Of a DNA stretch of 64,000 nucleotides, positions 31,455 to 52,967 are shown one piece after another. Under the pieces are notes generated by a model. The model worked only from the letters and a program-made list of their open reading frames with translations. It did not search any database and was not told where the DNA came from. Position 1 is the stretch's first letter; the number at the start of each line of letters is the position of its first letter. Source of the stretch: Pseudomonas viridiflava (lineage in GTDB: Bacteria > Pseudomonadota > Gammaproteobacteria > Pseudomonadales > Pseudomonadaceae); NCBI RefSeq assembly GCF_003702045.1, contig NZ_RBTP01000042.1, positions 1 through 64,000 on the forward strand, read 5' to 3'. The position numbers and the translations under genes were made by a program.

Positions 31455-31736
31455 ATGGCTCTTACTAAAGACCAATTGATCGCCGATATCGCTGAAGCTA
31501 TCGACGCGCCAAAAACCACCGCGCGTAATGCTCTTGAGCAATTGGGCCAAATTGTTGCCGACCAATTGGAAAACGGTGCCGAAATCACTCTGCCGGGCAT
31601 CGGCAAACTGAAAGTGACCGAGCGTCCAGCTCGCACTGGCCGTAACCCTTCGACTGGCGCAGCCATCGAAATCGCTGCCAAGAAAGTCATCAAGTTCGTA
31701 CCGGCCAAAGTGCTGAACGACTCGATCAACAAGTAA
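31455..31736 (+). CDS. hupN: HU-family DNA-binding protein (HupN-like)
   Basis: 93-residue HU/IHF-fold protein that bends and compacts DNA. Helical N-terminus MALTKDQLIADIAEAIDAPK, then the beta-arm region with the intercalating Pro in GRNPSTGAAIEI. Pseudomonas has several HU paralogues; the context next to yejK, rlmF and valS fits hupN of P. putida (from memory). A strong terminator follows. Confidence 0.88.
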   Translation: MALTKDQLIADIAEAIDAPKTTARNALEQLGQIVADQLENGAEITLPGIGKLKVTERPARTGRNPSTGAAIEIAAKKVIKFVPAKVLNDSINK

Positions 31737-42320: not shown

Positions 42321-43445
42321 TCAACCGCGGAAGTAACGCTGCGCAACGAAAGGCATTTTTGCCACGCGCATCGGGACTTTCTTGCCTCGCACCATTGCCC
42401 AGACCGGGGTATCGAGCGCTGTGTACCGAGTGTCCAGGTAACCCATTGCCAATGGGCCGCCCAGGCTGGGTCCGAAACCACCGCTGCACACGCTGCCGAT
42501 TACATGGTCTTGTGCATCGACAATCTGGGTTCCTTCGCGCACCGGTGTGCGTTCCTGGGGCAAGAGGCCGACGCGTTTGTTGTCCACCCCTGACTGCTGC
42601 TGAGCAAAAATCTGCTCGGCGCCCGGGAAACCCCCAGCACGTGCGCCGTCGGCACGTCGGACCTTGGAGATGGCCCACAGCAGGCTGGCCTGAATGGGCG
42701 ATGTGTCGGTGTTCATGTCATGGCCATACAGGCACAGGCCGGCTTCGAGACGCAGCGAATCTCGGGCGCCCAGGCCGATGGGGGACACTTCCGGTTCTTC
42801 AAGAAGACGCCGGGCAAGTGCCTCTGCTTTATCTGAAGGGACGGAGATTTCATAACCGTCTTCGCCGGTGTAACCCGAGCGGCTGACATAGCACGGCACA
42901 CCCATCAACGTGACGCTTTTGAATTGCATGAACGTCATGTTCGCGACTTCAGGTGCCAGACGCGCCAGTACGGTCACAGCGGCAGGGCCTTGCAAAGCAA
43001 GCAGGGCACGCTCTTCGAACAGCGGCTCGATCTTGCAGTGACCCGCCAGTTGCTTGCACAGGTGCGCCAGGTCCTGATCCTTGCAGGCGGCGTTGACCAC
43101 CAGCATCAGTTGATCATTGCCCAGGTTGGCAACCATCAGGTCGTCGAGAATACCGCCGGTTTCGTTGGTGAACATGGCGTAGCGCTGCATGCCGACCGGC
43201 AGGTCGATGATGTCCACCGGGACCAGGGTTTCCAGTGCCTTGGCGGCATCGGTGCCGGTCAGGCGAATCTGGCCCATGTGCGAGACGTCGAACAGACCCG
43301 CTTGGGCGCGGGTGTGCAGGTGTTCTTTCATGACGCCTGCGGGGTATTGCACAGGCATGTCATAACCGGCGAACGGTACCATCTTGGCACCCAGTTCACG
43401 GTGCAGGGCGTGCAGCGGTGTGGTCAGCAGGGATTCTGTGGACAT
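42321..43445 (-). CDS. gcvT: GcvT, glycine cleavage T protein (aminomethyltransferase)
   Basis: Transfers the methylene group from lipoyl-GcvH to tetrahydrofolate, releasing ammonia. 374 residues. Folate-binding core with FDVSHMGQIRLTG, YTGEDGYEIS and LRLEAGLCLYGHD. I start at ATG 43445 (MSTESLLTTPLHALH) with AAGGAA 6 nt upstream. Third gene of gcvH-gcvP-gcvT; a 74-nt gap with a strong hairpin separates it from gcvP. Confidence 0.95.
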   Translation of the reverse strand: MSTESLLTTPLHALHRELGAKMVPFAGYDMPVQYPAGVMKEHLHTRAQAGLFDVSHMGQIRLTGTDAAKALETLVPVDIIDLPVGMQRYAMFTNETGGILDDLMVANLGNDQLMLVVNAACKDQDLAHLCKQLAGHCKIEPLFEERALLALQGPAAVTVLARLAPEVANMTFMQFKSVTLMGVPCYVSRSGYTGEDGYEISVPSDKAEALARRLLEEPEVSPIGLGARDSLRLEAGLCLYGHDMNTDTSPIQASLLWAISKVRRADGARAGGFPGAEQIFAQQQSGVDNKRVGLLPQERTPVREGTQIVDAQDHVIGSVCSGGFGPSLGGPLAMGYLDTRYTALDTPVWAMVRGKKVPMRVAKMPFVAQRYFRG

Positions 43446-43480
43446 GTTCAATTCCTTGTAAGTCGGGCCGTGCATGACAG

Positions 43481-43504
43481 CGCTGCCCGTCAATACGGGC
43501 AGCG
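43481..43504 (-). terminator. Hairpin between gcvP and gcvT
   Basis: Perfect 9-bp stem CGCTGCCCG / CGGGCAGCG with a 6-nt loop, extendable by GACA / TGTC across a one-base bulge. Starts 15 nt after the gcvP stop. No T-tract; may tune gcvT level. Confidence 0.6.
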
Positions 43505-43519
43505 TGTCGGCATCCGTGA

Positions 43520-46384
43520 TCAGGCTTCCTGATAACTCTCGATGGACGGGCAGGCGCAGACCAGATTACGGTCGCCGAACACGTTGTCGACGCGGCCGAC
43601 CGGCGGCCAGTACTTGTTCTCGATCAGTGAGGCAACCGGGTATACGGCCTGTTCGCGGCTGTACGGATGAGTCCACTGACCGACGATTTCGGCGGCGGTG
43701 TGCGGCGCGTTTTTCAGCGGGTTGTCGTCCTTGTCCAGGGTGCCGTTTTCCACTGCACGAATTTCTTCGCGGATCTTGATCATGGCGTCGCAGAAGCGGT
43801 CCAGCTCTTCGCGGGATTCGCTTTCGGTCGGTTCGATCATCAGCGTGCCTGCCACCGGGAACGACATGGTCGGTGCGTGGAAACCGAAATCGATCAGGCG
43901 CTTGGCGACGTCATCGACGCTGATGCCGCTGCTGTCTTTGATTGGGCGCAGGTCCAGAATGCATTCGTGCGCCACCAGGCCGTTGCTGCCGGTGTACAGA
44001 ACCGGGTAGTGATCTTCCAGACGGCGGGAGATGTAGTTGGCATTGAGGATCGCCAGTTGCGAGGCGCGCTTCAGGCCTTCACCGCCCATCATGCGAATGT
44101 ACATCCAGGTAATCGGCAGGATGCTGGCGCTGCCGAACGGTGCTGCGCAAACCGCACCTTCCTTGCGCTCCATGCGGGCGTGGCCCGGCATGAACGGGGC
44201 GAGGTGGGATTTCACACCAATCGGGCCGACGCCCGGGCCGCCACCGCCATGAGGAATGCAGAAGGTCTTGTGCAGGTTCAGGTGGGACACGTCGCCACCG
44301 AACTTGCCCGGCGCGCAGAGGCCGACCATCGCGTTCATGTTGGCACCGTCGATATAGACCTGGCCGCCGTTGTCATGAACGATGCTGCAGATTTCGCGGA
44401 TGCCTTCTTCGAACACCCCGTGGGTCGACGGGTAGGTGATCATCAAAGCGGCCAGTTGGTCGCGATGCTGAAGTGCTTTGGCGCGCAGGTCTTCGATGTC
44501 CACGTTGCCGCGTGCGTCGCAGGCCGTCACGACGACGCGCATGCCCGCCATGTTGGCGGTAGCCGGGTTGGTGCCGTGGGCAGAAGAAGGAATAAGGCAG
44601 ATATCACGATGCTCGTCGCCACGGCTCTGGTGATAGGCGCGGATGGCCAGCAGGCCTGCGTACTCGCCTTGAGAACCTGCGTTGGGCTGCAGCGAAATGG
44701 CGTCATAGCCGGTGGCCGCGCAGAGCATGGTTTCCAGTTCATCGGTCAACTGCTGATAGCCCGCACTCTGCTCGGCAGGTGCGAACGGATGCAGGTTGCC
44801 GAATTCGGCCCAAGTGACCGGGATCATTTCGCTGGCGGCGTTGAGTTTCATGGTGCACGAGCCCAGCGGGATCATGGTGCGGTCCAGCGCCAGGTCCTTG
44901 TCGGCCAGTTTGCGCAGGTAGCGCATCAGCTCGGTTTCGGAGTGGTAGCGGTTGAATACCGGGTGGCTGAGGATCGCCGACTGACGCGTCAGTGCGGCAG
45001 GCAGACGCGATTGAACGCTGCCTGAGAGGGCTGCGAAGTCCGGCAGGCTCTGGCCGTCAGCAACGAAGATGGCCCACAGGGTTTCAATGGCGGACGGTGA
45101 GGTCGTTTCGTCGAAAGACACGCCGAGGTGTTCGTCGTCGATCTCGCGCAGGTTGATGTACTGCGCGCGGGCGGCGGCATGCAGCGCGGCGGTTTTGCCG
45201 GCCGTGTGCAGGGTCAGGCTGTCGAAGAAGGAGTGCTGCTGGACCGTATAACCCAACTGACCCAGGCCTTCGGCGAATATGGCGGTCAGGTGGTGAACGC
45301 GGTTGGCGATCTGTGTCAGCCCCTTTGGTCCGTGATACACGGCATACATGCTGGCGATGTTGGCCAGCAGCACCTGCGCGGTGCAGATGTTGCTGGTGGC
45401 TTTCTCGCGGCGGATATGTTGCTCGCGGGTCTGCATGGCCAGCCGCAGGGCCTGTTTGCCATGACGGTCCACCGACACACCGACCAGACGGCCCGGCATG
45501 TCGCGTTTGAAGGCGTCACGAGTCGAGAAGTACGCCGCATGCGGCCCGCCGAAGCCCAGCGGTACACCGAAGCGCTGCGCGGTGCCGATGGCAACGTCCG
45601 CACCGAACTCGCCTGGCGGCGTCAGCAGGGTCAGGGCCAGCAGGTCGGCTGCCACTGCAACCAGCGCATTGGCAGCATGGAAGCGCTCGACCAGATCGCG
45701 GTAATCGAACACGTCGCCATTGCTGGCCGGGTACTGCAGCAGCGCACCGAAGTAATCGCTGACATCGCCCAGCTCGGCCTCATCGGCCACCACAACGGTG
45801 ATGCCCAACGGCTCGGCACGAGTGCGCAGCACGTCCAGGGTTTGCGGATGGCAGTGGCTTGAGGCGAAGAACTGCTGGCTGTTTTTGTTCTTGCTCAAGC
45901 GTTTACAGAAGGTCATGGCTTCGGCGGCCGCAGTGGCTTCGTCCAGCAGCGAGGCGTTGGCGATCGGCAGGCCGGTCAGGTCGCTGATCAGCGTCTGGAA
46001 GTTGAGCAGCGACTCCAGACGGCCTTGAGATATTTCCGGCTGATACGGGGTGTAGGCGGTGTACCAGGCCGGGTTTTCCAGCAGGTTGCGCAGGATGGGC
46101 GCGGGCGTGTGGGTGTTGTAGTAACCCTGGCCGATGTAAGTCTTGAATAGCTGGTTTTTGCTGGCGATGGCCTTGATGGACGCTAGCGCGTCGGCTTCGC
46201 TTTGCCCGGCAGGCAGATTCAGCACACTGGTGCCCTTGATGCTTTCCGGGATGACGCTTTCGCTCAGCGCTTCGATGGAATCGAAACCCAGGGTTTGCAA
46301 CATGGCCTGCTCGTCAGCGGCGCGCGGGCCAATGTGGCGGGCGATAAATTCGTTGGCGGTGCTCAGTTCAATGCGGTCGGTCAT
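43520..46384 (-). CDS. gcvP: GcvP, glycine dehydrogenase (decarboxylating)
   Basis: P protein of the glycine cleavage system: a PLP enzyme that decarboxylates glycine and loads the aminomethyl group onto the GcvH lipoyl arm. 954 residues, full-length fused two-lobe form. The PLP lysine is in [18 protein letters not shown] in the C-terminal lobe, followed by a typical Gly-rich loop. Starts 10 nt after gcvH. No glyA or sdaA gene lies between gcvP and gcvT, unlike the P. aeruginosa operon. Confidence 0.97.
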
Positions 46385-46394
46385 GGCTCGCTCC

Positions 46395-46778
46395 TCAGGC
46401 TTCGGCGTTGGCTTTGATCAGGCGGTCGTAGGCGTCCTGATTCAGCAGGCCGTGGATGGCGTTGGCATCTTGCGGAATGAAGCGAAAGAACCAGCCGGCG
46501 CCCAGGGCGTCTTCATTGACCAGTTCCGGCGTGGCGTCGAGGGCAGAGTTGACGTCGACCACTTCACCGTCCAGCGGCATATTGATGCTGCTCGCGGCTT
46601 TGACGGACTCCACCACCGACACTTCGGCGTGCTGAGTGTAGACCTGCAATTCAGGGAGCTGAACGAACACCACGTCGCCCAGCGATTCCTGCGCATAGGG
46701 GGTGATGCCAACCGTGACACTGCCATCGGCCTCGGCGCGCAGCCATTCGTGATCGACAGTGAAGCGCAACTCGCTCAT
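46395..46778 (-). CDS. gcvH: GcvH, lipoyl carrier protein of glycine cleavage
   Basis: Small carrier of 127 residues whose lipoylated lysine shuttles intermediates between P, T and L proteins. The lipoylation motif [14 protein letters not shown] places the lysine at residue 60. GAGGAG precedes the ATG. First gene of the operon, downstream of a sigma-54-type promoter. Confidence 0.97.
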
Positions 46779-46833
46779 AAAAACTCCTCGGGACTGAATC
46801 TCGCGCTGGGCGCGAATTTATCCCTGGAACTAA

Positions 46834-46848
46834 GCAATTTTGCGGCCA
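46834..46848 (-). promoter_or_regulatory. Sigma-54 promoter of gcvHPT
   Basis: On the minus strand TGGCCGC-AAAA-TTGC fits TGGCACG-N4-TTGCW; the GG and GC pairs are exactly 10 nt apart. Start site near 46822, leader about 44 nt to gcvH. Confidence 0.78.
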
Positions 46849-46912
46849 TTTTTAATAAATCTAATAAAATCAATTGGTTATGTTTTTTGGCGGCACAACG
46901 AGTAGCTTGCCC

Positions 46913-46930
46913 TGTAGCGAAATCGCTACA
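46913..46930. promoter_or_regulatory. GcsR-like site 1 (proximal) upstream of gcvH
   Basis: TGTAGCG-AAAT-CGCTACA, inside a 28-bp palindrome (46908-46935, TGCCCTGTAGCGA arms). Centre about 100 bp upstream of the proposed start. Matches the half-site pattern TGTAACG-N4-CGTTCCG described for GcsR in P. aeruginosa (consensus from memory). Confidence 0.6.
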
Positions 46931-46992
46931 GGGCAGGTCGTTGAGAAAACGGTGCCCGATCAAAGCCTTGATTACACAGCGTCACGACCGAT

Positions 46993-47029
46993 TGGAATGA
47001 ATTCATTCCGTTGTAACGATATCGCTACG
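46993..47029. promoter_or_regulatory. GcsR-like sites 2 and 3 (tandem) upstream of gcvH
   Basis: Two 18-bp units one base apart: TGGAATG-AATT-CATTCCG (46993-47010, containing a perfect 16-bp palindrome) and TGTAACG-ATAT-CGCTACG (47012-47029). Both fit TGTAACG-N4-CGTTCCG. They lie about 180-200 bp upstream of the start, enhancer distance. Confidence 0.62.
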
Positions 47030-47066
47030 ATTTGCCTGGAGCGGTTGACGGCTACGGGTCACCCGC

Positions 47067-49181
47067 TTAGGCCACATGGCTGTGTGCTGCGCGCAAAAAC
47101 GCTTCCAGTTCGGCGAGCCGCAGTGGCTTGCTGACCAGATAACCTTGCACCTGATCACAGTGGTTATCGGTCAGAAAGGCCCGTTGTTCGGGCGTTTCTA
47201 CGCCTTCGGCAATCACCTTGAGGTCAAGGCTGTGAGCCAGTTCGATGATCGCTCGTGCGATGGCGGCATCTTGTGGATTACTGGTCACTTCACGAATGAA
47301 CGCGATGTCGATCTTCAGCTTGTCGATAGGGAATCTGCGCAAATAAGCCAGACTGGAATAGCCGGTGCCGAAGTCATCGATGGAGATACTGACGCCCATA
47401 CTCTTGAGCGTTTGCAGGGTTTCGATGGTGTGCGAAGTGTTTTCCATCAGTGAGCTTTCCGTGAGTTCGACCTCAAGCCACTTCGGGTCCACCTGATGCT
47501 GTTCGAGCGCGTTGCGAATGTCGGCGAGCAGGGTGGTTCCGGCGATCTGCTGACCGGAAACGTTCACGGCGACCTGGAGCGGGCCCAGCCCCGAACGTGC
47601 CCACTCGGCGATCCGGGCGCAGACACTGTCGATCACCCAGCTGCCGACTTCGCTGATCAGCCCAAGGCTTTCCAGCACCGGGACAAACACGGCGGGAGAT
47701 ACGGGCGGCAGGTCAGGGCGCGGCCATCGCAGTAAGGCTTCAAGGCCGCAGACGCTACCGTCGTCCAGCCTGACTTTGGGTTGGTAGGCGATTTCGAACG
47801 TGCGCTGTCGCACGGCCTCACGCAGGGCGTTTTCAAGATCCAGGCGCTCCGTAACCTCAGCGTTCATCTGGGCGGTGTAGAACCGGTAACCGTCCACGCC
47901 TTTCTTCTTGGCGTTGTTCATGGCCGTGTAGGCGTGGCGTACCAGTTCGCGGGCGTCCTCGCCGTCCTCGGGGAACAGTGCGACGCCGATGCTGGCCGTC
48001 AGCACCACACGCTGGTCTTCGATCTGAAAGGGCGTGCGCAAGGTGGTGCGGATGCGTTCCAGTATCTGGTGGGTATCGGCCTGACCCTCGCGGATCATCA
48101 GAATCAGCGCGAATTCGTCGCCGTCCACCCGACCGAGCGTGTCACTGGCATTCAGGCACCTCGCCAGGCGCTTGCTGACCTCAAGCAACGTCCGGTCGCC
48201 GAGAACGTGCCCCCAGGTTTCGTTGATGTTCTTGAAACCATCCAGATTGACGGTCATCACCGCCAGCTTCCAGCGGCTGACCGCAGCCTGGGTCAGGCCC
48301 ATTTGCAGGCTGGTGTAAAACAGGTCGCGGTTGGGCAGGCCGGTCAGGTTGTCATAGTGAGCCATCTTCAACAGGCGCCGGTCCGATTCCTTGCGACGGG
48401 TGATGTCGTGCACGATGCCGACAATGATCCAGTCGTCGCCCGCCTGATAGGCCTGGCGATGAATTTCCACGGATACGTCATGGCCGCTCTTGTCCCGGAT
48501 CATGGTTTCCAGCGGTTCGCTCGGGCCCCTACCAGCAATGATCTGGTCGTAGACCTCTTCCAACTGTTCCGTGGAACTCTCGCCCAGATCCGCAGGCGTC
48601 TTTTTATGCAACTCTTCAGCGGTATACCCCAGCAACTGACAGGCTCGCCGGTTGAATTCGATCAGGCTCATGGTGTTGCGATTGATTAGGAAAATCGCAT
48701 CGTCCGAGGCATCCATGACCGAGCGGAAGCGTTCCAGGTCGATGGTGCGCAGTTGCAACTGTTCCTCAAGCGCCAGGTTATGGCTTTTCAGGTAGTCGCC
48801 AAAGGTCTTGAGCCTCAGCAGATTGCGCACACGCAGCCAGAGCTCGGAGCTGTCCACCGGCTTGTTGAGGTATTCCTCGGCGCCAGCTTCCAGCCCTGAC
48901 AGGCGAGCACTTTGCTCATCGAGGGCCGAGAGCATGATGATGGGGATATTGGCGGTTTCTCTGGAGGACTTGAGGCGGTTGGCAACCTCGAAGCCGTCCA
49001 TGCCCGGCATCATGATGTCCAGCAGGATCAAGTCGGGTGGCTGTTGCTGGATCATGGCCAGCGCCTTTTCGCCTGACTCGGCGGTCTGCGTCAGATAGTT
49101 CTGGTTGCGCAGCAGCACTTCCAGCAGGTCGCGGACGTGAACATCATCGTCCACGATCAAAATGGTTGCGTTCTGAGTCAT
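47067..49181 (-). CDS. Response regulator with PAS, degenerate GGDEF and intact EAL domains
   Basis: 704 residues. Receiver domain residues 1-120 (D12, phospho-acceptor D55, K107), coiled linker, PAS domain (about 150-265), GGDEF-like domain with DGDEF (353-357) instead of GGDEF and no RxxD inhibitory site (NASD at 344-347), EAL domain from about 455 with EAL 481-483 and the motifs NVSGQQI, ELTESSLME, DDFGTGYSSL, AEGVET and QVQGY. It therefore probably degrades c-di-GMP, with a weak or allosteric GGDEF (inference). Overlaps the next small response regulator by 4 bases. Confidence 0.93.
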   Translation of the reverse strand: MTQNATILIVDDDVHVRDLLEVLLRNQNYLTQTAESGEKALAMIQQQPPDLILLDIMMPGMDGFEVANRLKSSRETANIPIIMLSALDEQSARLSGLEAGAEEYLNKPVDSSELWLRVRNLLRLKTFGDYLKSHNLALEEQLQLRTIDLERFRSVMDASDDAIFLINRNTMSLIEFNRRACQLLGYTAEELHKKTPADLGESSTEQLEEVYDQIIAGRGPSEPLETMIRDKSGHDVSVEIHRQAYQAGDDWIIVGIVHDITRRKESDRRLLKMAHYDNLTGLPNRDLFYTSLQMGLTQAAVSRWKLAVMTVNLDGFKNINETWGHVLGDRTLLEVSKRLARCLNASDTLGRVDGDEFALILMIREGQADTHQILERIRTTLRTPFQIEDQRVVLTASIGVALFPEDGEDARELVRHAYTAMNNAKKKGVDGYRFYTAQMNAEVTERLDLENALREAVRQRTFEIAYQPKVRLDDGSVCGLEALLRWPRPDLPPVSPAVFVPVLESLGLISEVGSWVIDSVCARIAEWARSGLGPLQVAVNVSGQQIAGTTLLADIRNALEQHQVDPKWLEVELTESSLMENTSHTIETLQTLKSMGVSISIDDFGTGYSSLAYLRRFPIDKLKIDIAFIREVTSNPQDAAIARAIIELAHSLDLKVIAEGVETPEQRAFLTDNHCDQVQGYLVSKPLRLAELEAFLRAAHSHVA

Positions 49182-49579
49182 GACGAGCGCTCATGTGGTT
49201 GGCCATTAGAGAGGGGGTTTTCCAGCAGGGCGTTTATAACCCGGTACAGCTCCTTGTAGCGCAGCGGCTTGGTGATGTAAGCGTTGCAGCCCGCGAGCCG
49301 GATTTTCTCTTCGTCTTCTTTCATGGCCATTGCGGTCAGGGCGACCACAGGAATAGCCGCTGTGAGGGGGTCTTTTTTCAGCAGTGACGTCGCGTTCAAC
49401 CCATCCATTCCCGGCAACTGTATATCCATGAGGATCAGGTCGGGCTGATGTTCACGCGCCTGTTTCAGGCCGGTTTCTGCATCGGCGGCGCACAACACGC
49501 TGTGGTGGGCGCTGGTCAGCAGCAACTCCGCCAGTCGCATGTTGGCTTCATTGTCCTCAACGATCAGGATTTGGGCCAC
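49178..49579 (-). CDS. Single-domain response regulator (CheY/DivK type)
   Basis: 133 residues: receiver domain only, with acidic pair E8-D9 and phospho-acceptor D52, LTAMAM switch region and conserved Lys in YITKPLRYKEL. Its 5' end overlaps the kinase stop by 16 bases, and its 3' end overlaps the REC-PAS-GGDEF-EAL gene. A phosphorelay or signal-splitting role is likely. Confidence 0.93.
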   Translation of the reverse strand: MAQILIVEDNEANMRLAELLLTSAHHSVLCAADAETGLKQAREHQPDLILMDIQLPGMDGLNATSLLKKDPLTAAIPVVALTAMAMKEDEEKIRLAGCNAYITKPLRYKELYRVINALLENPLSNGQPHERSS

Positions 49580-51279
49580 GGCGCCTCCACAGGTGCGAAG
49601 GGGCGAATGGGCAGCCAGGCCATGAAGCGTGCCCCCAGATCCTTGACACTGGCCACCGCAACGGTGCCGCCGTGCAGTTCTGCCAGCTGTTTGACCATTG
49701 CCAGGCCCAGCCCGGTGCCTTCGAATTTGCGCGCAAGGCTGCTGTCAATCTGGCTGAACGCCTTGAACAGCTTGTTCATGTCGCTCTGGGCGATGCCGAT
49801 GCCCGTGTCGCTGACGCTCAGTTCAAGGAACTGCGGGTAGTCGCTGTCTGGCAAATCGAAGCCATAAACGGGCCAGTCGCCTTCGATGATGCCAGCCTGT
49901 GATCGTGGAACGATGCGTACCGCCAGCGTCACCCACCCGCCTGCGGCGCTGAATTTGACGGCGTTGGCCAGCAGGTTGTAGACGATCTGTTTGGTCTTGC
50001 GCCGATCCAGTTCAAGCAGTCCGAACTCGGCTTCGGACTCCAGCTTCAACTGAATGCGTTGCAGTGCGGCCTGCTCCCGCACGATCAGCAGGCTGTTGCT
50101 CAACAGTTCGTCGAGGTCGACGGGTTCCAGCTCCAGCGCCATCATCCCGGCCTCGACCTTGGACAGGTCGAGAATATCGTTGATCAGCGACAGCAGATGC
50201 TGGCCACTGTTGAAGATATCGCCGATGTACCGGCGCTGGTCATCACTCATCTCGCCGACCATGCCATCCCTGAGCGCCTCGGAAAATCCTATGATGGCGT
50301 TCAGCGGGGTACGCAGTTCATGTGACATGGTCGCCAGAAACTCGGACTTCATGTGACTGGCATGTTCCAGCTCGATGTTCTTCTCTTCCAGCGTGCGCTC
50401 GAAGCGTTTGCGCTCGGTCACATCGCGGGCGGCGGCGAACACACCCTTGAGTTTGCGGTCCCGATCGTGAAAGGTCGCAGCGTTGTAGGACACCACGGTT
50501 TCGGTGCCGTCGTAGGCGCGCACGGTGAGTTCGTAGTCGCTGACCGTATGTTCGCTGAGTACGCGCTTGATGGCCGCTTCAGCGCTGGCCGGGTCGGTAA
50601 AGAAGTTCTTGCACGGCGCGCCGATCAGTTCGTCCCGGGTTCGTCCGGTGAGCGCCATCATCTGTTTGTTGACGTCCGAGATGATGCCCTGCGGATCGGT
50701 CATCATCAGCGCATCGATGTTGGATTCGATCAATGAGCGGGTATAGAAATGCTGATCGCGCAAACGCTGGTCCAGAAGCGCCTGGGTTTCTTCCTCTTGC
50801 TTGCGTGCCGTGTTGTCGGTGCCGATCAGCAGGTAGCCGATGATGGCTTCCGTGCTGTCACGCAGTGCCGTCACTGACACCATTGCCGACAACCGACTGC
50901 CGTCCTTGCGAATGTAGGTCAGTTCGTAGATGTCTTCGAGGCCGCGAGAGGCTTTGAACACCAACGCTTCGAAACCGGGCGTGATCGGCGTATTGAGCTC
51001 GTAGCTCAAGGCGGCGGCGCGGGTGATCAGCTCGTCGGGATCGGAGATGTCGGCGGGGGTGATCTTGTTGACCACATCTTCAGACTGATAGCCGAGCATG
51101 CGTTCGGCACCCACATTGAAAATCTGGATGACGCCATGTTCATCGGTTGCAATGCTGGAGAAGTGCGCGCTGCTGACAATGGCGTCTTGCAGTGCACCGG
51201 TCTTCAACAGGTTTTTCTGTCGGAGGGATTCAACGATTCTTTCGTCACGAGACTCATGCCCTACTGGCGGGGTCTGCAT
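49564..51279 (-). CDS. PAS-PAS sensor histidine kinase
   Basis: 571 residues without predicted membrane helices, so a soluble sensor. Two PAS domains (about residues 33-155 and 180-290), HisKA with the phospho-acceptor H320 (FLATMSHELRTPLNAIIGF), and HATPase with N box LANAVKFS, G1 VSDTGIGI and G2 GTGLGL. No attached receiver domain; instead two separate regulators follow in the same operon. GGGAGC precedes the ATG. Ligand unknown; the first PAS lacks an obvious heme- or flavin-binding motif. Confidence 0.92.
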   Translation of the reverse strand: MQTPPVGHESRDERIVESLRQKNLLKTGALQDAIVSSAHFSSIATDEHGVIQIFNVGAERMLGYQSEDVVNKITPADISDPDELITRAAALSYELNTPITPGFEALVFKASRGLEDIYELTYIRKDGSRLSAMVSVTALRDSTEAIIGYLLIGTDNTARKQEEETQALLDQRLRDQHFYTRSLIESNIDALMMTDPQGIISDVNKQMMALTGRTRDELIGAPCKNFFTDPASAEAAIKRVLSEHTVSDYELTVRAYDGTETVVSYNAATFHDRDRKLKGVFAAARDVTERKRFERTLEEKNIELEHASHMKSEFLATMSHELRTPLNAIIGFSEALRDGMVGEMSDDQRRYIGDIFNSGQHLLSLINDILDLSKVEAGMMALELEPVDLDELLSNSLLIVREQAALQRIQLKLESEAEFGLLELDRRKTKQIVYNLLANAVKFSAAGGWVTLAVRIVPRSQAGIIEGDWPVYGFDLPDSDYPQFLELSVSDTGIGIAQSDMNKLFKAFSQIDSSLARKFEGTGLGLAMVKQLAELHGGTVAVASVKDLGARFMAWLPIRPFAPVEAPWPKS

Positions 51280-51458: not shown

Positions 51459-52967
51459 TCAGGACTTGCCGGAAATGCCGTACTTGCGCAACCGATGTGC
51501 AATGGCCGTATGGGATGTATGCAGGCGCGCAGCCAGTTGCCGGGTAGAGGGATAGTCGGCATAGAGCTTTTCAAGCAACTCTTTTTCGAACGCTTCGACC
51601 GCGTGCTCGAGGCTGTCGACTCCAAGGGTGTTCTGGCCTGCGACGGCAGTGCCCGCAATGTCCAGATCACCGATGTCCACCAGCGCGCTTTCACTGATGG
51701 CTGCCGCACGGAAAATCACGTTCTGCAATTGACGGACATTGCCGGGCCAGCGATTGCCCAACAGGGCGGGATAAGTACCGGGTGCCAGACGACAGACCGG
51801 GCGCTGGATCTGTGCGCAGGCCTGCTCCATGAAATAGCGGGCCAGCAGCAGAATGTCCTGGCCGCGCTCGCGCAAGGGGGGGACGTCCAGGTTCAGAACG
51901 TTAAGGCGGTAGAACAGGTCTTCGCGAAACGTGCCTTCGCTGACCATTTTTTCCAGATCGCGGTGGGTGGCGCTGAGGATGCGCACATTGACCTTGACCT
52001 CGCGGTCGCCGCCCACGCGCCGGAAACTGCCATCATTCAGGAAACGCAGTAATTTGGCCTGTAGATAGGGCGACATTTCACCGATCTCGTCCAGAAATAC
52101 CGTGCCTTGGTTGGCCAGTTCCATCAAGCCTGGCTTGCCGCCGCGCTGGGCGCCGGTGAAGGCGCCGGGGGCGTAGCCGAACAGTTCGCTTTCGGCGAGG
52201 TTTTCCGGCAGCGCTGCGCAGTTGAGGGCCAGAAACGGTTCGCCGTGCCGGGCGCTGCTGGCGTGACAGGCACGGGCGACCAGTTCTTTGCCGGTGCCGG
52301 TTTCTCCCTGGATCAACAACGGCGCGTCCAGCGCTGCAATCCGCTGTGCGCGGGCCTTGAGCGTGCGGATGGCGGCTGACTCGCCGAGCAGCGCATCGAA
52401 GCCTTCGGCATGATCATGGTGCAGCGCCGACAGGCGTTCGCCGATCCGGCTGGGCAGGTACAAGGTGATCAGCGCGCCAGCCTCGGTGATGGGCGTTGCG
52501 TCGAGCAGCAATGCCTCGCCATTGAGGGTGATTTCACGCAGGGGCAAGCGAAAGCCATTTTCCAACAGCGCGTTTTGCAGGCTGGGATCGGCGAGCAGAT
52601 CGCCAATGGCTTCGCCTGCCGGTTCGCGGCCGATCAGCGTAATCAGTGCCGGATTGGCCAGCAGCACATGCCCGGCACTGTCCAGCGCCAGAACCGGGTC
52701 GGTCATGGCGGCCAGTAGTGCATCGAGCTGTAAATGACGGCGCTGGCCCGGCAGGATATCCACCACCGTGATGGCCTCTACCCCTCGCACCCTGAACAGC
52801 GCGTCCTTGAGCTCTTCGAGCATTTGATGGCTCAAGGTCGGCGCGTCGATATAGACGTTAGGCGGCACCATTTCCACTGCGTCCAGGTTCAGATTACGCC
52901 CGCCCAGAATCGCCAGCACTTCCTGGGTAATACCGACACGGTCGATGAAACTGACATGGATACGCAT
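51459..52967 (-). CDS. gcsR: GcsR, TyrR-like sigma-54 activator of glycine cleavage
   Basis: 502 residues: ACT domain (1-75, MRIHVSFIDRVGITQEVL), PAS domain (about 80-190), AAA+ domain (about 205-430) and HTH (about 455-500). The AAA+ domain has Walker A GETGTGKE, the sigma-54-contacting GAFTGA, and DEIGEM. It resembles TyrR/PhhR/GcsR. Linkage to gcvHPT, whose promoter is of the -24/-12 type and carries GcsR-like sites, supports GcsR, the glycine-responsive activator known in P. aeruginosa. PhhR is the main alternative. Confidence 0.88.
   Translation of the reverse strand: MRIHVSFIDRVGITQEVLAILGGRNLNLDAVEMVPPNVYIDAPTLSHQMLEELKDALFRVRGVEAITVVDILPGQRRHLQLDALLAAMTDPVLALDSAGHVLLANPALITLIGREPAGEAIGDLLADPSLQNALLENGFRLPLREITLNGEALLLDATPITEAGALITLYLPSRIGERLSALHHDHAEGFDALLGESAAIRTLKARAQRIAALDAPLLIQGETGTGKELVARACHASSARHGEPFLALNCAALPENLAESELFGYAPGAFTGAQRGGKPGLMELANQGTVFLDEIGEMSPYLQAKLLRFLNDGSFRRVGGDREVKVNVRILSATHRDLEKMVSEGTFREDLFYRLNVLNLDVPPLRERGQDILLLARYFMEQACAQIQRPVCRLAPGTYPALLGNRWPGNVRQLQNVIFRAAAISESALVDIGDLDIAGTAVAGQNTLGVDSLEHAVEAFEKELLEKLYADYPSTRQLAARLHTSHTAIAHRLRKYGISGKS

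Follow-up and report, generated by a model that had tools for sequence, protein, structure and literature searches.

In P. aeruginosa PAO1, the binding of GcsR to the gcvH2 promoter, the response of this promoter to glycine and its requirement for RpoN have been published, and putative GcsR sites have also been reported in P. putida KT2440, P. fluorescens Pf0-1 and P. syringae DC3000 (PMC4894688). In Table 3 of that paper, which lists the probes used, a single oligonucleotide carries mutated site 1 together with the start of site 2, with a two-base gap between them, and the flanks of PAO1 site 3 match neither of the other two, indicating that site 3 is non-adjacent (PMC4894688). Going by these probes and the text accompanying them, the word 'tandem' used there for the three sites is loose wording.

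The locus described here comprises a 288-bp intergenic gap upstream of gcvH (46779-47066) within the 64-kb stretch of DNA that was analysed (the window). Its features are collected in Table 1. On the 5' side the gap is bordered by a gene for a receiver-GGDEF-EAL protein on the same strand as gcvH, and at its other end gcvH is followed by gcvP and then, within 26 bp (43493-43520), by gcvT, with neither glyA nor sdaA between these two. In transcription order (minus strand), the gap consists of site 1, 1 base, site 2, 62 bases, site 3, 64 bases, a GG-N10-GC element and 54 bases before gcvH. Site 2 starts 19 bp after site 1, and site 3 begins 80 bp after site 2, within a 28-bp palindrome (46908-46935; 13-bp arms, 2-bp centre, 93% self-match). 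The -24/-12 element is likewise conserved before gcvH in relatives, and its position points to a transcription start near 46822.

Table 1 Features of the gcvH upstream region and its neighbourhood in the 64-kb window
Feature	Position	Strand	Remarks
gcvT	42321..43493	-	directly after gcvP; NF010093, TIGR00528
gcvP	43520..46384	-	TIGR00461, 1510 bits
gcvH	46395..46778	-	PF01597, TIGR00527
Sigma-54 -24/-12 element TGGCCGCAAAATTGCT (GG-N10-GC)	46833..46848	-	82 bp after site 3 start
Promoter-proximal IHF consensus TAACCAATTGATT	46868..46880	-	exact; 50 bp after site 3 start, between site 3 and promoter
GcsR-type site 3 TGTAGCGATTTCGCTACA (plus strand TGTAGCGAAATCGCTACA)	46913..46930	-	10/14 consensus letters; matrix 28.1, best in window
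Enhancer-internal IHF-like block CAAGGCTTTGATC	46958..46970	-	40 bp after site 2 start, between sites 2 and 3
GcsR-type site 2 CGGAATGAATTCATTCCA (plus strand TGGAATGAATTCATTCCG)	46993..47010	-	11/14 consensus letters; matrix 17.7, third in window
GcsR-type site 1 (distal) CGTAGCGATATCGTTACA (plus strand TGTAACGATATCGCTACG)	47012..47029	-	12/14 consensus letters; matrix 26.5, second in window
Receiver-GGDEF-EAL gene	47067-49181	-	5' of the gap
Single-receiver gene	49178-49579		upstream of the receiver-GGDEF-EAL gene
PAS histidine kinase gene	49564-51279		between the single-receiver gene and gcsR
gcsR, TyrR-like sigma-54 activator	51459..52967	-	PAS, AAA+ and TyrR-type HTH domain matches; ACT domain not among the listed matches

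The sites were compared with an 18-bp consensus, TGTAACG-N4-CGTTCCG, which has 14 specified letters, and were scored with a matrix built from 36 sites at 12 other Pseudomonas loci, the window excluded. This matrix ranks the three sites first to third among all positions of the 64 kb, the next best scoring 13.8. Among 5000 dinucleotide shuffles of the gap, none contained even one site that reached 17.6, about the score of the weakest real site (maximum 17.3), and the best score in 160 tiles of 288 bp (window 1-46000) was 5.8 versus 17.7-28.1 in the gap. The same distinction was seen among gcvH genes: the lowest best score upstream of the gcsR-type gcvH was 18.1 across 112 upstreams (12 of which had trained the matrix), whereas upstream of the other gcvH copy it was at most 0.2 in 20 genomes. 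These 20 control stretches, assumed to be distant from gcsR, precede gcvH copies that are 50-55% identical to the gcvH of the window in 19 of the 20, those with a value. A search of the genome with a loose palindromic pattern yielded 25 places as compared with 47 for the reversed control; three of the 25 fall within these 117 bp and there was no second cluster in the genome, and a wide GcsR regulon was therefore rejected. Single unclustered GcsR-like sites were seen elsewhere in the genome for L188, L194 and L195 (matrix 15.4-15.9).

In a profile search, the product of the putative gcsR gene matched sigma-54-activator domains and, above its cut-off, the TyrR-type helix-turn-helix, while its match to the NCBIfam TyrR model fell below the cut-off (455 versus 576 bits). 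It is 94% identical to the P. tremae copy and 83% identical to the copy in a P. aeruginosa-like genome (G126). The first of these identities suggests a Pseudomonas from the neighbourhood of P. syringae. By sequence, the window genome encodes a GcsR ortholog near the gcv cluster. Most of what the sequence-only reading had proposed for this region was borne out. The -24/-12 element and all three 18-bp palindromic units are present at the positions it gave, and the chance tests and matrix ranks agree; two of the units are in tandem with a one-base spacer and the third lies within a palindrome with perfect arms, as it had described; and the TyrR-like activator it placed upstream has sigma-54-activator domains and a TyrR-type helix-turn-helix. 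Its overall proposal, that gcvHPT is preceded, near gcsR, by a sigma-54 promoter and three GcsR-type sites, is in line with the conservation of both sites and promoter in relatives.

The comparison with relatives comprised 114 upstream rows (the window, 14 named loci and 99 loci from genomes of the same family), of which 112 were distinct. The named Pseudomonas loci numbered 17 before L012, L013 and L015, which have no gcvH in the stretch, were set aside; L109 and L126 (identical to L003 and L009 over 260 bp) and L178 (the same place as L100) were dropped. Sites were assigned by a script that allowed a pair spacing of 18-21 bp and placed site 3 55-95 bp before the -24 box. One geometry, with 80-83 bp from site 2 to site 3 and 79-84 bp from site 3 to the -24 element, was found in 95 of the 112 distinct upstreams, a set chosen from match lists rather than at random and rich in close kin (the 95 loci form 55 clusters, the largest of 29). 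Outside the matrix training set the figure was 83 of 100. The spacing between sites 1 and 2 was 19 bp in 110 upstreams and 20 bp in two. At a score of at least 9, three sites were found in 104 of the 114 rows and two sites in the other ten, and in none of the 114 did three sites lie in tandem (18-21 bp steps, same threshold). Seven loci of one genus (g6; L101, L102, L103, L181, L182, L184 and L185) share a compact variant of 19, 42-43 and 69 bp. The remaining site 2-3 spacings were 69 bp in two loci, 91 bp in two, and 55, 59, 79, 134 and 168 bp once each, with one further locus having 83 and then 69 bp. When the spacings of 42, 55, 59, 69, 91, 134 and 168 bp were inspected by hand for helical phasing, nothing convincing emerged. 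In L011 and L124, the 134- or 168-bp spacer contains a GC-rich stretch resembling an inverted repeat, which gives the appearance of a repeat inserted into the enhancer.

The two-plus-one layout is the common one in the Pseudomonas relatives examined. The sequence-only reading had taken the displaced third site for a different enhancer architecture; since 95 of the 112 distinct upstreams have this layout, it is not unusual. The contrast with P. aeruginosa, whose sites were said to be reported in tandem, rests on that one word, because site 3 stands apart both in the published oligonucleotides, where sites 1 and 2 alone are neighbours, and at the locus L100. At L100 (G126), the spacings are 20, 81 and 83 bp, with 2 bp between sites 1 and 2, and PAO1 has the identical site 2. 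A LysR-like gene lies between gcsR and gcvH, as in the gene order of PAO1. The -24 box is 79 bp before gcvH, the distance given for PAO1 (PMC4894688). From the identical site 2, the 2-bp spacer, the promoter distance and the LysR-like gene, we infer that L100 is P. aeruginosa-like. A PAO1 oligonucleotide had no match in 398 genomes of the family with up to 3 mismatches.

The gene 5' of gcvH varies among relatives, being gcsR at some loci (e.g. L086, L087, L113 and L115), the GGDEF-EAL gene at others (the window, L003 and L106-L108) and other genes elsewhere, and the promoter block is present in all. In four genomes (G173, G322, G379 and G507; loci L088, L111, L112 and L114), which are draft assemblies with no gcsR within ~6 kb upstream, gcsR and gcvH are on separate contigs and the sites are kept before gcvH; at L088 the spacer between sites 2 and 3 is 55 bp. 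That the block is kept with differing upstream genes or a distant gcsR speaks for elements of the gcvH promoter and against a terminator or the tail of gcsR.

Between gcsR and gcvH, the window encodes a kinase, a single receiver and the receiver-GGDEF-EAL protein (47067-51279). The same three genes lie between gcsR and gcvH in L003, L106, L107, L108 and G577 (L221), and are absent in L086, L087, L113, L115, L116 and L117, where gcsR adjoins gcvH; they are a clade-limited module predicted to act in c-di-GMP signalling. In L221 (G577:C274:1600-20000), gcsR and gcvH are ~20 kb apart, with further genes beyond the signalling module, and their translations gave us the impression of a pump for secretion and of repetitive reading frames of very large size.

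The gap also contains two conserved IHF-like blocks, which the sequence-only reading had overlooked while recognising the sites and the promoter. The IHF consensus is WATCAANNNNTTR, and its reverse complement, YAANNNNTTGATW, is matched exactly by the block between site 3 and the promoter. A close form of the consensus, WATCARNNNNTTR, is quoted in a general account (PMC7962754). Among the 95 loci of standard geometry, 78 (39 of 55 by sequence cluster) have a match with at most one mismatch that begins 49-51 bp from the start of site 3, as compared with a mean of 0.5 loci (maximum 6) at other offsets. Across 47 loci that share one exact geometry, conservation is highest in the columns of the three sites, both blocks, a T-run and the -24/-12 element, and the mean information per column is 1.39 bits in the proximal and 1.00 bits in the internal block versus 0.38 bits in the remaining columns. 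The genome has ihfB, above cut-off in the profile search. Together these data make the proximal block a good candidate for an IHF site of the kind usual at sigma-54 promoters. Elsewhere in the window (31464-31733), a reading frame matches the ihfB model weakly (47.6 bits versus a cut-off of 119.95), and therefore perhaps encodes an HU-like protein.

The second block, between sites 2 and 3, is one letter off YAANNNNTTGATW, and an overlapping AATCAAGGCTTTG (46961-46973) is exact in the other orientation. Of the 95 standard-geometry loci, 51 (21 of 55 by sequence cluster) have it at an offset of exactly 40 bp from the start of site 2 and 44 lack it, with a mean of 0.03 loci and a maximum of 1 at other offsets. 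A T-run follows it in 46 of these 51 loci versus 9 of the 44 that lack the block, and in the window TTTT (46946-46949) stands ~9 nt after the TTGAT of the block. This is about the distance of the T-run in the lambda H' site. In our view the internal block would be bound either by IHF, with some further constraint on its sequence, or by a different factor.

Several other explanations for these elements were weighed. A reading of the 28-bp palindrome as a terminator or a dispersed repeat, not a GcsR site, could appeal to its perfect arms and its place downstream of a same-strand gene; we rejected it, along with that of a hairpin, as scarcely credible. A T-run follows on neither strand, a search of the genome gave no second match at E 0.001 or better, and relatives have a site at equal distance though their upstream genes differ. 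Outside the 18-bp core, pairing between the flanks exceeded that of shuffled sequence only modestly at two of six offsets (37 versus 27.8 and 35 versus 27.1, of 112), and the remaining four gave values close to or under the shuffled ones. It is also very unlikely that the sites serve PhhR, the aromatic-amino-acid relative of TyrR. The genome does encode a second TyrR-like activator (C30), 43% identical over its length, and TyrR-type sites resemble one another (PMC4894688); however, sites 1 and 3 have the CG pairs that this paper describes as special to GcsR (site 2 has TG/CA), and no such site precedes the other gcvH in the 20 genomes.

Two further alternatives accept the GcsR/sigma-54 promoter or leave it untouched, and concern what the blocks do. 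The internal block may be the target of another factor tuning gcvH, which we hold to be possible though not the better bet. All 14 letters of its core, CAAGGCTTTGATCC, are conserved in 47 loci, the four positions left 'free' by IHF included (1.20-1.75 bits, versus 0.41-0.56 in the proximal block), and the last letter of the block is C in 44 of 47 loci, deviating from IHF. Moreover, the block with its T-run at fixed distance occurs in 17 of 59 genomes, once each, and in all 17 before gcvH. Against this, the block differs from the IHF consensus at a single letter, its T-run stands at about the distance known from the lambda H' site, and the bare 14-mer is also found away from gcvH: of 35 matches in the 59 genomes, 24 are before gcvH, nine elsewhere and two unassignable, the position of gcvH being unlisted (reversed control, 0). 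The 14-mer is thus not strictly confined to gcvH, yet no wide regulon is visible. The window copy, which reads CAAGGCTTTGATCG and has its T-run two bases nearer, fits neither search pattern. Alternatively, spacing may be set by the assembly of GcsR itself, with the IHF-like blocks as helpers at most, a proposal to which we give some weight without favouring it. Neither block (at most one mismatch) is present in 12 of the 95 loci, and these keep the 80-83 and 79-84 bp, so that IHF bending cannot be the sole fixer of spacing; among them is L100, with its standard distances and a GC-rich palindrome in the place of the proximal block. This long palindrome at L100 lies where relatives have the IHF consensus. 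On the other hand, in loci that have them the two blocks keep a fixed position and rank with the best conserved columns of the region, and other lineages differ in spacing (42-43 plus 69 bp in seven loci; 55, 59, 69, 91, 134 and 168 bp between sites 2 and 3).

We return to the explanation that we consider likely, an ordinary GcsR/sigma-54 promoter whose enhancer is split, in which the proximal gap would be bent by IHF and the internal gap possibly bent too. The gcvHPT promoter would be glycine-inducible, sigma-54-dependent and activated by GcsR, two dimers of which would lie side by side on sites 1 and 2 (centres near -199 and -180 relative to the predicted start), with a third on site 3 (near -99). 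In the presence of glycine, the dimers would form an AAA+ hexamer, leading to opening of the sigma-54 polymerase complex. IHF would most likely act between site 3 and the -24 box, folding the activator onto the polymerase, and in the window species and about half of its relatives a bend in the DNA at the block between sites 2 and 3 may let the third dimer meet the other two. It is more doubtful whether the enhancer is closed by bending as such, with the internal block dedicated to folding the 81-bp spacer, bringing three dimers, each bound separately, into one hexamer and a second bend handing this hexamer to the polymerase. In a rough rod calculation, sites 2 and 3 are 27.5 nm apart on straight DNA versus 5-7 nm with a 160-degree bend, the bend centre and angle being assumed. 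If the enhancer is indeed closed by bending, an activator array would be assembled by an architectural protein rather than by adjacency. From the small spread of distances, together with the two bending-like blocks, comes a clear prediction on how TyrR-type hexamers assemble on DNA. These results also correct a reading that made the species seem exceptional and give a precise layout for a promoter class known across Pseudomonas. In the literature on GcsR with IHF, PhhR with IHF and sigma-54 enhancers with IHF, a search mostly of freely accessible papers found no account of this layout; GcsR and IHF do co-occur as words in a paper, but unconnected.

The closest known system is the PAO1 gcvH2 (gcs2) promoter, which likewise has a TyrR-like activator gene nearby, a sigma-54 element and three 18-bp sites, two adjacent and one apart going by its published oligonucleotides (PMC4894688). 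The kind of system is already described there, and the geometry and the two blocks are a refinement, the blocks being new here. The operon differs, being gcvH-gcvP-gcvT here and gcvH-gcvP-glyA-sdaA-gcvT in PAO1 (PMC4894688); because the wider claim made there covers glycine metabolism clusters of other species, the missing glyA and sdaA are a difference of operon content and not of the promoter. Further differences from PAO1 are the spacer between sites 1 and 2 (1 bp here, 2 bp there), the kinase, receiver and GGDEF-EAL genes between gcsR and gcvH, and the IHF-like blocks, the main text of the GcsR paper containing no mention of IHF, bending or looping (PMC4894688). The locus also resembles IHF-assisted sigma-54 promoters such as the CbrB targets in P. 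putida (PMC6296734; in general, PMC7962754), in which an IHF consensus separates the activator sites from the -24 box. By contrast with these promoters, where CbrB subsites are 20-25 bp apart (PMC6296734), the gcvH upstream region has a second IHF-like block inside the enhancer, between two activator sites.
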